From: Bifidobacterium apousia
Lineage (GTDB): Bacteria > Actinomycetota > Actinomycetes > Actinomycetales > Bifidobacteriaceae
Length of the DNA stretch: 64,000 bases
NCBI RefSeq assembly: GCF_007559275.1
Contig: NZ_VMHK01000001.1
Location: forward strand, 620,001 to 684,000
Direction of reading: 5' to 3'
The notes below the pieces were generated by a model. The model saw only the letters and a program-made list of their open reading frames with translations. It searched no databases and was not told the DNA's origin. Below, piece after piece: positions 40,941 through 45,400 of the stretch. The position numbers were made by a program, and so were the translations under genes. Each line of letters begins with the position of its first letter. The first letter of the stretch is position 1.

Positions 40941-41546
40941 TTATCGAGACAGATAGGGATTGCCTGTGATGACGAACCTTCGCAGAGTCTCTTTGGCGCG
41001 AGATATGCCTATTCGGGGGGTTGCCTTGATGGTCTCGTCCTGGGCCAGCCCGGCGGCTGCCAAGCGGATGGGCGGTGTTCTCAGGTCATGGCCGTAGTAG
41101 CGCTTGTCGATGTCCAATGCCTGACAGAGCTTGGCGGGACCGTTGGTCAGCTCCCGGTCCGGGTGACGGCCGTGTCTGTGATTGCGCAGAAGGTCCAGAC
41201 CTTGCACTGGCTGGCAGGCCCGAATCAGCACACCGGCGCCGAATCCGTCCTCCTGGCAGGAGATGTTCAGGCAGTAGTGCATTCCATAGGTGAAGTAGAC
41301 GTACATGTGTCCGCTGGGGCCGAAGAGGGCAGCGTTGCGCGCCGACCGCCCGTGATAGGCATGGCTGGCCGGATCATTCTGATCGTAGGCTTCGGTTTCC
41401 ACGATCCGAACCCTGGCCTGTTCGCCTTCCGGATCGTAGTCCCGAATGATCAGGCAGCCCAGAAGCATCCGGGCGGCCTGATCCACAGGGCGGTCCAGAA
41501 AGTCTGGGAAGACCAGGTGATCGTCCAGGCTTGAACCGGTCTTCAT
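40941..41546 (-). CDS. mpg: 3-methyladenine (alkyladenine) DNA glycosylase
   Basis: A 201-residue AAG/MPG-family glycosylase that excises 3-methyladenine, hypoxanthine and ethenoadenine from DNA. The catalytic region [51 protein letters not shown] and the [11 protein letters not shown] motif are characteristic. Last gene of the regulator-ferredoxin-glycosylase operon; its ATG overlaps the ferredoxin stop (ATGA). A repair enzyme for deaminated bases in a nitrite/NO-linked operon is suggestive. Confidence 0.95.
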
Positions 41547-41929
41547 TCCGTCTGGTCCTTGCGGACCCAGACCGCGCGCTGGCCGCGTGATTCCGGCTGA
41601 AGGCAGACGAAATTATCCTGGTGGGGCAGGGCGGCGACCTGTGGATGGTCGTGATCGTAGGGTCCTTGGGCCTGGGCGCCGCCAGCATCACCGACCTGGG
41701 AAAAGAAGTCTTCGGAGGCATCCTTGAACCAGGTCCATTCCTCTGGCAGGTCCTCTTCATAGAAGATCGCCTCCACGGGGCAGACGGGCTCGCAGGCGCC
41801 GCAGTCGATGCATTCATTAGGATTGATGTACAGGTTCCTGGGGCCCTCGTAGATGCAATCCACCGGGCATTCGTCCACGCAGGCCTTGTCCTTGACGTCC
41901 ACGCAAGGTTGGGCAATCACGTAGGTCAT
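41543..41929 (-). CDS. fdxA: Seven-iron ferredoxin, C-terminally extended
   Basis: A 128-residue FdxA-type electron carrier. Eight cysteines (9, 17, 21, 25, 40, 43, 46, 50) lie in [17 protein letters not shown] and [26 protein letters not shown], the pattern of actinobacterial 3Fe-4S/4Fe-4S ferredoxins. Those are usually about 105 residues; here about 22 extra residues follow (roughly 107-128), ending [11 protein letters not shown]. The ATG at 41929 overlaps the regulator stop, and an AAGGAG site lies upstream. It could pass electrons to a reductase or reflect the redox state for the regulator; neither is shown. Confidence 0.92.
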
Positions 41930-42678
41930 TGCTTTGCTCTCCTTTTTGATTGGTTGTCCGCTTTTGCTACTTTCAGGAAGCATCCTTTTGGCGATGACAG
42001 GGGTTCCAACACTACATTGGCTTTTTTGTCGCCGGCCTCCTTATTGCTGCCGTCCGCCAGCCCTTGGATCATTCCTAGATGAATCTTGCAGATAATGGGA
42101 TGGTTGCTGACACTTTCCAGAAAGGGGCATGCGGTCAGATACAGACTTGCTGAATCCGGCCGCGCTCTCACCGGTGCAAAACCTAAGGTGGTCAGAGCAT
42201 CCAGCAGTGTCTGCCTCATGCTCGATGGCACGCTTTTTCCTGCATTGATCTTGTCCTGCCGAGCCAGAGTACGACCCCATGCCTGCCCCGCTTTCAAGGC
42301 GGCCTCATTCCTGCTCCTTGTATCGGGACAGGCAGTTTCCAGTGCCAGGCAGAGCGAGGAGATCATATCCTCCCTGGCTTGGTTCATGGATGTGGGGGAG
42401 TAGATGACAGCAGGTCTGCCTCGACCGGTTGACTGGCTGTCACTGCCTGTTCTTTGACGGACTGCCTTACCCTGTTCGACCAGGCGTTCAAGATGGAAAC
42501 GAGCGGTCGTCGGATGGATGCCGAAGACTGCTCCGATCTGCTGCGCGGTTAGTCCTGCACCGGTCTGTTCGGCTGCCGCACGCAGGTAATCCATGATTGC
42601 GGAGCGGATCTCCTCCCCGCTTCTGCGCTTGGCGGGGGCTTGGATCCATTGCTTGCGGGCTTGAATTTCCTGACTCAT
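41926..42678 (-). CDS. Winged-helix regulator with SufR-like iron-sulfur cysteine cluster
   Basis: A 250-residue transcription factor. The N-terminal winged HTH (about residues 20-95) has [31 protein letters not shown] and a [11 protein letters not shown] wing. The C-terminal domain holds Cys184 (TACPFLE), Cys197 and His200 (PIICKIHLG) and Cys233 (SPKGCFLKV), a pattern like SufR-type regulators that bind an Fe-S cluster. That family senses iron, oxygen or NO. It is divergent from the NirK-like gene across 58 bases and heads the fdxA-mpg operon. A minus-strand TACAAT (42686-42691) 7 bases before the ATG suggests leaderless translation. Confidence 0.85.
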
Positions 42679-42736
42679 CGATTAAATTGTATAACTATCA
42701 AATTAATTATCAACCCAGGACAAGGCGGACAGACTC
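42679..42736. promoter_or_regulatory. Short AT-rich divergent promoter region
   Basis: This 58-base gap is far richer in A/T than its surroundings. On the minus strand TTGATA (42708-42713) and TACAAT (42686-42691) are 16 bases apart and end 7 bases before the regulator ATG. The motif TATCAA occurs twice on the plus strand (42697-42702 and 42709-42713 region). Any regulator bound here would control both directions. The NirK-like gene has a weak AAGGCGG ribosome site. Confidence 0.55.
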
Positions 42737-45400
42737 ATGCAGGATGACCAGAAGATGCGTAAGTCCGGCGGCAGAATGGCCGTGCCCAGATCCAGAATGG
42801 TCCTCCTCATCGGCGCAGGTCTGGCTGCGCTGCTTGGTCTTGTAGCGGCGCTGATCCGCGCGGATCTGATCCACCTTTCAGACAGGGTGCCCCTGGCTGA
42901 CCTGCACGGCGGGCTCATGGTCTATGGGTTTTTGGGCGCTGCCATTGGCCTGGAGAGGGCAGTGGCTTATCGCAGCGGCGGATCCAGCAAACCCTCTTGG
43001 GGATTTTTCGCTCCTGCCTTGGGTCTGCTGGGGTCTCTGCTCTGCCTGTTGTCGCTGATAGTTTCCAGCCATGGTGGTGCCCCGGCATGGGTCAGGGTGG
43101 AGCTTGTTGGCGGCATTCCATGGACTTTGTCCATGTTGGTTCTGACAGCCATGTATGTGGCCATCTGGCGTCGGCAGCCTTCTGCAGAGGTGCTCATACA
43201 GGTTCTCGGATCCCTGGTGGGTCTGGTCGGGGCCGCTGGCTGGGTCACAGGATTGGATGCCTCGGTTCTGACTCCAACCTGGCTCTTCTTTCTGATTCTG
43301 ACCATCGTGGGGGAGCGGGTGGAGCTGGCCAGGGCGGTCTTTTCGGATATTCGTCTTGAATCGGGAATCCTGGGTCTGAGCCTCCTGACAGTCCTGATGC
43401 TGCCGATCCAAGCCATGGCGCCTTCGGTCGGCTATCCGCTTCTGGGGCTGTCGCTGGGACTGCTCCTCCTGGTCATGGCCAGTCATGATGTGGCCAAGGG
43501 CACCTTCCGTCATGGCGGCCTGCCGGGATTCATGGGCACCTGCATGCTGTCGGCCTACGCCTGGGGACTGCTGGCTGCCCTCATCTGGATGGCGGCACCC
43601 CTGGATTCCAGCACCTACTGGGGGGACATGGCACTGCACGCGCTGGCTGTGGGATTCATCATGACCATGGTCATCGCCCATGTCTGCATGATCGTCCCCT
43701 CGGTCATTCGCAGGCCTCTGCCCTTCCATCCCCTCCTTTGGGGTGCCTGGGCGCTTATGCAGATTGGCTTGCTGATCAGGCTCCTGGGAGCCATCCGACT
43801 CTACACACCCTTGTGGAAGGCGGGGAACCTGCTGAATGTTCTGGGAATCCTCTCCATGATGCTGACTGTGGTCTACCTGGCTGCTCGTGGCAAGCAGATC
43901 CTGGCGTCCAAGCGCTACCGTCGGCGCCAGCCCGGGGGTTCGCAAAACGAACGCGTGGGGACTTTGGCACTGAGAACGGACCTGATTGCCACCTCGGCTG
44001 CTGTGCTGGTCCTCGTGGCCGCCGTGACTGTGATGGCCCTGCGGCCGACATTGGCTGTTTCGGTCGGGGCGGCGCCCAGTGCCGGAGGCGTCCAGGAGGC
44101 ATCGTCGAAGAGCGTCCAACCAACGGGTCACACCAGCAGAGCTTCAATCAAGGTAAAGGGGATGGCTTTTGTGCCGGATGTCATCACCATCAAGGCAGGC
44201 GACCGGCTGGTTGTGGATTTTCGCAACACCGGAGATCAGCGGCACGACCTGGTTTTCGCCAATGGCAAGAGCACAGGATCCGTCCCTGTAGGTAAGAGCG
44301 TCTCGGTCGACGTGGGGGTCCTAGGTGCGGATACCTTGGGATGGTGCTCACTGGCAGGACATCGCCAGATGGGCATGGAGCTCAAGATCGAAACACAGGG
44401 CGGAACTGTTGCCGAGCCAGGTCAGTCCTCCACTGGGAAGACAGCCCTAGGCCATGTTCCATCAGCCGCCAAGCTCAAGTTGCAGGCTGAGAAGAGCGAC
44501 CCGGTCAAGGCGGCTCTTCCACCCTTGGATGACCATGGGAAGGCAGGAACCAGAAAGTACACGCTGGAGGTCAAAGAGCGCAAGGAGCAGGTGGCAGCAG
44601 GGCTTGAGCGCACGGTCTGGAGCTTCGACGACGCGGGCGATCCACGCGATAAGGGGTCGCGGCCCCTGGCTCAGGGTCCGGTGCTCAGAGGCCGGGTGGG
44701 AGACACCTTTGAAGTCACCATAAGGAACAAGGGAAGCATGAGTCATTCCATTGATTTTCATGCCGGTCCGGCCGTCCCCCAGACCATGATGCGCAATATA
44801 GAGCCAGGCAAGGAGCTCCTGTACACCTTCACCGCTGATCGGGCTGGCATTTGGATGTACCACTGCAGCAGCGACCCCATGTCAAACCATATAGCCAACG
44901 GCATGTATGGGGCTGTGGTGGTCGATGACGGCACCCTGCCGCCAGTGGCTGCCGAATACGTTCTGGTCCAGTCTGAAATCTATCTGGGGCCCAACGGAGG
45001 GACTGCCGATGCGGAAAAAGTGGCGGCCCTGACCCCGGATATCATGACCTTCAATGGACGGGCCTTTCAATATGACGCCCACCCCCTCAAGCTGGAGAAG
45101 GGGCAAAGGGTTCGCATCTGGGTTCTGGACGCCGGACCCAACCAGCCGCTGTCCTTCCATATCGTGGGAACCCAGTTCGACACGGTCTGGACCGAGGGCC
45201 GCTACCTGATTGGCGGAGGCGCAGGAGGGAATTCCGCTGCTGCCTCATCCTCATCAGCGGGAGCGCAGGTCCTGCCGCTGCTGCCGGCCCAAGGTGGATT
45301 TGTCGAGCTCAAGGTCGATCAGCCCGGCGACTATGCCATAGTCAATCACGTCATGAGCCTGGCTGAAAAAGGCGCGCATGGCATCCTGCGGGTGTCGTGA
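42737..45400 (+). CDS. Membrane NnrS-like domain - cupredoxin - copper nitrite reductase fusion
   Basis: An 887-residue protein in three parts. Residues about 20-435 form some 13 helices; DLHGGLMVYGFLGAAIGLERAVA (His57) and LHALAVGFIMTMVIAHVCM (His301, His315) resemble NnrS-type heme-binding membrane proteins. Residues about 468-552 are a type 1 copper domain with His503, Cys537, His542 and Met545 or Met547. Residues about 605-887 match two-domain NirK: His670, Asp673, His675, His709, Cys710, His718, Met723, His808 and His871, all ligands and both active-site residues (Asp673, His808). It should reduce nitrite to NO outside the membrane. Other multicopper oxidase activity is possible. The electron donor is unknown. 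Confidence 0.85.
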   Translation: MQDDQKMRKSGGRMAVPRSRMVLLIGAGLAALLGLVAALIRADLIHLSDRVPLADLHGGLMVYGFLGAAIGLERAVAYRSGGSSKPSWGFFAPALGLLGSLLCLLSLIVSSHGGAPAWVRVELVGGIPWTLSMLVLTAMYVAIWRRQPSAEVLIQVLGSLVGLVGAAGWVTGLDASVLTPTWLFFLILTIVGERVELARAVFSDIRLESGILGLSLLTVLMLPIQAMAPSVGYPLLGLSLGLLLLVMASHDVAKGTFRHGGLPGFMGTCMLSAYAWGLLAALIWMAAPLDSSTYWGDMALHALAVGFIMTMVIAHVCMIVPSVIRRPLPFHPLLWGAWALMQIGLLIRLLGAIRLYTPLWKAGNLLNVLGILSMMLTVVYLAARGKQILASKRYRRRQPGGSQNERVGTLALRTDLIATSAAVLVLVAAVTVMALRPTLAVSVGAAPSAGGVQEASSKSVQPTGHTSRASIKVKGMAFVPDVITIKAGDRLVVDFRNTGDQRHDLVFANGKSTGSVPVGKSVSVDVGVLGADTLGWCSLAGHRQMGMELKIETQGGTVAEPGQSSTGKTALGHVPSAAKLKLQAEKSDPVKAALPPLDDHGKAGTRKYTLEVKERKEQVAAGLERTVWSFDDAGDPRDKGSRPLAQGPVLRGRVGDTFEVTIRNKGSMSHSIDFHAGPAVPQTMMRNIEPGKELLYTFTADRAGIWMYHCSSDPMSNHIANGMYGAVVVDDGTLPPVAAEYVLVQSEIYLGPNGGTADAEKVAALTPDIMTFNGRAFQYDAHPLKLEKGQRVRIWVLDAGPNQPLSFHIVGTQFDTVWTEGRYLIGGGAGGNSAAASSSSAGAQVLPLLPAQGGFVELKVDQPGDYAIVNHVMSLAEKGAHGILRVS

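Follow-up and report, generated by a model that had tools for sequence, protein, structure and literature searches.

A copper nitrite reductase of Bifidobacterium apousia fused to a membrane domain of predicted heme-copper oxidase subunit I fold

Copper nitrite reductases (NirK) are widespread among actinobacteria, often with no obvious NO reductase as partner. Those of about 900 residues carry a 400-residue membrane domain "of unknown function" (PMC4770552). In the Propionibacterium acnes type of this size, a membrane domain of about 400 residues, a cupredoxin with the motif CX4HX4M and NirK follow one another in this order (PMC4770552), and the same order is found in the protein presented here, which is encoded within a 64,000-nucleotide stretch of B. 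apousia DNA (the window). The cupredoxin-NirK of Hyphomicrobium denitrificans (structure 2dv6) likewise joins an N-terminal type 1 copper (T1) cupredoxin to NirK and is the best PDB match of our protein, but it is soluble and has no membrane domain; according to work cited in PMC4770552, the distance from its N-terminal cupredoxin to the core is too great, and mutation of the T1 site of this cupredoxin raised activity.

Since actinobacterial membrane-cupredoxin-NirK fusions are already described in PMC4770552, the novelty implied by the prediction from which this work started (the original prediction) was overstated. The useful result is rather the identity of the membrane domain: in the searchable literature we found no description of the nature of this ~400-residue domain, nor of its exchange in the host family. 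A module of oxidase fold, related to NnrS and with a single predicted heme, gives the domain concrete residues, H57, H301 and H315, and suggests how a Gram-positive NirK could be fed from the membrane without soluble cytochrome or azurin.

The fusion gene and its copper domains

The gene is a single open frame whose 887-residue product begins with 12 + 1 membrane helices, continues with a cupredoxin of type 1 copper and ends in a complete NirK of two domains. Its features and those of its upstream region, in window coordinates, are:

41926..42678, - strand: divergent HTH regulator with conserved C184, C197, H200 and C233, an Fe-S sensor pattern (orthologue alignment)
42679..42736, no strand assigned: 58-bp divergent promoter region with repeated TATCAA boxes, nearly identical in 13 genomes
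42737..45400, + strand: whole gene, module A (heme-copper-oxidase-fold/NnrS-like) - TM13 - cupredoxin - NirK; 887 aa, single intact ORF
42737..43936, + strand: module A, residues 1-400, 12 membrane helices (18-384), predicted heme-copper-oxidase subunit I fold, remote relative of NnrS (AlphaFold2 model, structure and profile-profile comparison)
42905..42907, + strand: H57, candidate low-spin heme ligand near the outer end of TM2, motif HGxxM; invariant in 68 sequences
43637..43639, + strand: H301, candidate low-spin heme ligand in TM10, opposite the second His of the oxidase HxH, with A299 opposite the first; invariant in 68 sequences
43679..43681, + strand: H315 in TM10, invariant, in an inner-leaflet polar cluster with E73/R74 and E193/R194 (68-sequence alignment, depth)
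43967..44047, + strand: TM13, about residues 411-437, after a K/R-rich loop (hydropathy, positive-inside count)
44129..44392, + strand: extra cupredoxin, about residues 465-552, T1 copper ligands H503, C537, H542 and M547, C-X4-H-X4-M (Pfam, PDB match, ligands)
44393..44521, + strand: flexible linker, about residues 553-595 (low model confidence)
44522..45400, + strand: two-domain NirK core, residues 596-887 (NCBIfam, PDB match, ligands, structure comparison)

Of 27 genomes in the host genus, 17 have the fusion, which is intact in 16 of them (that of the host included) and frameshifted in the last. Identity to the window protein is 90-94% in 12 other genomes and 74-76% in three more, and the 16 intact ORFs, some in complete genomes, span 880-900 residues and keep all copper and heme ligand positions. 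Because the same protein recurs at 74-94% identity across the genus, chance and assembly artefact are excluded, and the fusion is confirmed as a real, conserved gene. The idea of an artefact of annotation or assembly, or of a gene in decay, can draw on a single genome (G023, L028:6341-9123) in which a frameshift breaks the fusion and alters its C-terminus, but against the 16 intact copies this reading is scarcely credible, and for the window copy it is refuted. The genome with the frameshift is complete, which indicates that the gene is undergoing loss in part of the genus. Another genome carries, about 5 kb from its intact gene, a short second NirK fragment of 54 residues, 81% identical (G001:C1:1301284-1301445).

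Pfam assigns a Cupredoxin_1 domain to residues 463-527, plus Cu-oxidase domains, and the T1 ligands first proposed for the extra domain (H503, C537, H542, M545/M547) are indeed there. The copper nitrite reductase model of NCBIfam, TIGR02376, matches residues 596-886 (E 4e-36) at 125 bits against a curated cut-off of 296; the clade being divergent, this equivalog model is not reached, and filing as NirK rests on ligands and fold. The match to 2dv6 extends over residues 483-886 (E 9e-41), and the fold agrees with many NirKs (Z 29-32 over 253-279 residues, rmsd about 2). All ligand positions, assigned by homology, are kept for T1 (H670, C710, H718, M723) and for the type 2 (T2) copper (H675, H709, H871), as are the catalytic D673 and H808, and these positions are conserved among actinobacterial relatives. 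The core is on these grounds a predicted copper nitrite reductase, which would convert nitrite to NO. Membrane domain, CX4HX4M cupredoxin and NirK thus stand in one chain; the three-part fusion, with its plastocyanin-like middle domain, is borne out by the single intact ORF, the Pfam and NCBIfam matches and conservation across the genus. Taken as a pair, cupredoxin and NirK superimpose on 2dv6 over 369 residues with an rmsd of 17 A, and the linker has a pLDDT below 50, so that the model leaves their mutual placement unfixed.

Fold and putative heme site of the membrane domain

An AlphaFold2 model of module A built from 68 sequences is confident (pLDDT 91.4, pTM 0.91) and contains 12 membrane helices. 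Its comparison with known structures, the check proposed with the original prediction, led to a heme family: the 50 matches listed by VIA-align are all subunit I of heme-copper oxidases or NO reductases (NOR), the best being CcoN of cbb3 (Z 28.3, 361 residues, rmsd 3.6 A), with Z 27.0 for NorB, and the best 13 Foldseek matches belong to the same superfamily. The 12-helix fold of subunit I is thus found in module A, about 360 residues aligning at 3.6-3.8 A with 12-13% identity. A PDB sequence profile search with module A gave no match, and no direct sequence-profile link from it to oxidase subunit I was found; the relation therefore rests on fold.

The link to NnrS is of another kind. When modules A and B (a second type of membrane domain, discussed below) were each searched alone against Pfam and NCBIfam, no family scored above its cut-off. 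NnrS (PF05940) is the only Pfam match of the window module A, weak (10.8 bits, E 0.31, against a gathering score of 28 bits) and colinear over residues 24-384; proteobacterial homologues of module A match it at E 0.01-1.8, also colinearly. Profile-profile comparison with eight NnrS sequences gave E values of 3.7e-6 to 6.2e-5, compared with 0.25-0.37 for reversed profiles and 0.5-0.8 for unrelated transporters, and of 107 module A sequences an NnrS HMM matched 7 read forward and none reversed. The two families share 12 helices, the AYAW motif in TM9, the histidines of TM2 and TM10, H57 falling in the WHAHEM region and H301 opposite THAFTVG, and NO-linked neighbourhoods. They differ in that module A lacks the second His of WHAHEM and the GHTGR motif, in that GERxEL and H315 occur in module A and not in NnrS, and in the fusion to NirK seen here. 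The description "NnrS-like" accordingly stands at the level of the superfamily and fails at that of the Pfam family.

NnrS and other heme-copper oxidase homology (HCOH) proteins were reportedly placed in the heme-copper oxidase superfamily by Pei et al. in 2014 (Protein Sci; cited in PMC4602095), and HCOH proteins are reported there to have 12 helices in three units, two His and one predicted heme; the superfamily link of NnrS-like proteins thus has a precedent. As modelled, module A is a relative of NnrS with a degenerate form of the heme-copper oxidase superfamily fold; its conserved TM2 and TM10 histidines are those of NnrS, a binder of heme (and copper), and module A is predicted to bind heme.

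The low-spin heme of the oxidase superfamily is ligated by a His in TM2 and, in TM10, by the second of the two His of an HxH motif. H57, H301 and H315 are invariant across the 68 module A sequences. H57 sits in a TM2 HGxxM motif like that of cbb3, and H301 lies opposite the second TM10 His, with A299 at the high-spin ligand position, an alignment that is not statistically significant and in which the fold match carries the weight. No conserved His was found in TM6 or TM7, the CuB/FeB positions, among these sequences. Unlike catalytic oxidases and NO reductases, therefore, module A has neither the His of the high-spin heme (A299 instead) nor those of CuB/FeB, and the host genome has no detectable COX1/NorB-type protein (heme-copper oxidase or NO reductase): the COX1 profile (PF00115) found nothing at E 1, with positive controls.

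All three histidines had been put forward as heme ligands. H57 and H301 hold up as candidates: in the oxidase fold both coincide with positions of low-spin heme ligation, and the outer end of the helix is 5 residues away for H57 and 7 for H301. H315, by contrast, lies 14 residues deeper, level with E73/R74 in TM2 and E193/R194 in TM6, and finds no support as a ligand of the same heme. The model thus predicts one outer-leaflet heme and one separate inner polar site: a single low-spin heme b should lie between H57 and H301, with no high-spin heme and no CuB. Loop charges broadly fit the positive-inside rule, the clearest case being the K/R-rich loop preceding TM13, and TM13 is predicted to place cupredoxin and NirK outside the cell, on the side of the heme. 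One relative in the host family (G028, L027:6121-7647) has an orphan 508-residue module A ORF, no NirK, and Asp at the H301 position, as if its heme site had decayed after NirK was lost.

Module A in other bacteria and the history of the fusion

Outside the host family, module A is widely a standalone protein of about 380 residues. In most of the 80 named loci found with module A as query, the genes are arranged as regulator, module A and module B-cupredoxin-NirK, neighbours frequently sharing 4 bp; this layout occurs in Mycobacterium, Streptomyces, Nocardioides, Arthrobacter, Cryobacterium, Cellulomonas and other genera. Many actinobacterial NirKs carry module B in place of A, and others have no membrane domain; 20 NirK loci picked without regard to module A included six with single-chain B-cupredoxin-NirK and none with module A. 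The similarity of A to B is moderate at best (E 1.7e-4, versus 0.12 reversed). Compared with NnrS, module B did not score above the reversed control, although in view of its similarity to A it may still be a distant relative. The membrane domain of the window fusion is of type A, not B: the other actinobacteria sampled (P. acnes not among them) have B in the fusion and encode A separately upstream, whereas the host family has A joined directly to cupredoxin-NirK and no B.

The host-family clade is monophyletic in the module A tree (support 1.0), next to G054 (0.994), and in that of cupredoxin-NirK (0.997), next to G054 plus one further B-type protein (0.995). G054 itself encodes A, B and cupredoxin-NirK by three distinct genes, and the agreement of the two trees on this nearest relative points to an ancestral A + B + cupredoxin-NirK operon. 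Most simply, B would have dropped out of such an operon in the host family, and A would have become fused to the reductase. Separate genes, B fusion, A fusion and loss of NirK form a natural experiment on which parts travel together. A further arrangement, A-B-cupredoxin-NirK in one frame of 1610 residues and possibly a four-part fusion, was seen in Micromonospora sp. NBRC 107566 (L115:7083-11915).

In proteobacteria, module A genes lie in NO or denitrification clusters with NsrR-type Rrf2 regulators, hemerythrin, DUF2249, a metal-sulfur assembly factor, NnrS, hmp and NosR. Homologues annotated as "hypothetical protein" are also carried by proteobacterial plasmids (L045:20868-22160, L047:9551-10660, L049:7560-8717, L051:7503-8657), adjoining genes for NnrS, NsrR-type regulators, hemerythrin, DUF2249 and metal-sulfur assembly.

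Proposed electron delivery, alternative roles and the divergent regulator

Fold, domain order, ligand conservation, and operon and fusion history, as read from sequence or model, describe a copper nitrite reductase that is anchored in the membrane, faces outward and has a predicted one-heme domain of its own; that electron delivery is the main role of this domain is a proposal to which we give an even chance. A membrane donor, for which menaquinol is a candidate, would reduce heme b at H57/H301; the copper of the tethered cupredoxin would carry electrons from heme to the T1 copper of NirK; from there they would pass to the T2 copper, which would reduce nitrite to NO. We infer heme occupancy, the donor, and the direction and rate of electron flow. 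The position of module A directly upstream of the membrane-cupredoxin-NirK gene in most of the 80 loci, its occurrence as a separate gene beside B and cupredoxin-NirK in G054, and its fusion in the host family argue for functional coupling to NirK.

The relay finds support in the physiology of the host, whose genome has cytochrome bd, ferrochelatase and menA-like genes, a set similar to that of Bifidobacterium asteroides (PMC3447821), and in the way ferrochelatase tracks NirK in the genus: it is present in 15 of 17 NirK-positive genomes, in one of these as a degraded copy, and in 0 of 10 NirK-negative ones (Fisher p 8e-6, with no correction for relatedness). The loss of H301 in the orphan module A that has no NirK points the same way. 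The relay is weakened by genomes with the fusion in which ferrochelatase was not found (G022, G026, and G031, where cytochrome bd was not found either), by the dispensability of the analogous Hyphomicrobium cupredoxin for activity (PMC4770552), by the unfixed cupredoxin-NirK arrangement, and by the single predicted heme, which provides no full transmembrane electron path. In its boldest form, this reading makes the protein a quinol:nitrite oxidoreductase in a single polypeptide. Its oxidase-fold domain, pared down to the low-spin heme, would accept electrons from menaquinol and send them outward by way of the cupredoxin to NirK, opposite to the direction in oxidases, and would need neither a soluble cytochrome nor azurin as donor; other actinobacteria would do the same with a two-gene complex of two membrane modules. 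We consider this somewhat less likely than not. The menA-like prenyltransferase genes of the host are two in tandem (G000:C6:545533-547149); most close NirK-positive relatives have two copies and most other genomes one.

Module A might instead deal with the product: its NnrS-like heme would bind or sense NO, either to protect the cell or to hand NO on, and NirK would receive its electrons from other donors. This is the main rival of the relay and a real one, in keeping with the remote NnrS homology, with the proteobacterial clusters and with a host genome in which no heme-copper oxidase or NorB-type NO reductase is detectable; but a bis-His heme would be six-coordinate, with no obvious site for NO, and electron transfer more easily explains the direct cupredoxin-NirK fusion, so that on balance we find NO handling rather unlikely. 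Improbable, in our view, is a module A that serves mainly as membrane anchor or assembly factor (for copper delivery, for example), with a vestigial heme or none: the replacement of A by B in many actinobacterial NirKs, the lack of a membrane domain in others and the fusion without detected ferrochelatase in G031 would suit it, yet a single helix suffices as anchor, TM13 already provides one, and the buried residues H57, E73, R74, GERxEL, D251, H301 and H315 are strongly conserved across classes and phyla in standalone module A proteins.

The divergent regulator keeps C184, C197, H200 and C233 in 59-60 of 60 orthologues, a pattern that presumably places it near the Fe-S-binding regulators of SufR type, and its orthologues adjoin module A/NirK operons throughout Actinomycetota. 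No palindromic operator was found in the shared 58-bp promoter. The end of the regulator gene is overlapped by a gene for an actinobacterial FdxA-type ferredoxin (window 41543-41983, - strand), and throughout the genus the two genes are conserved together.
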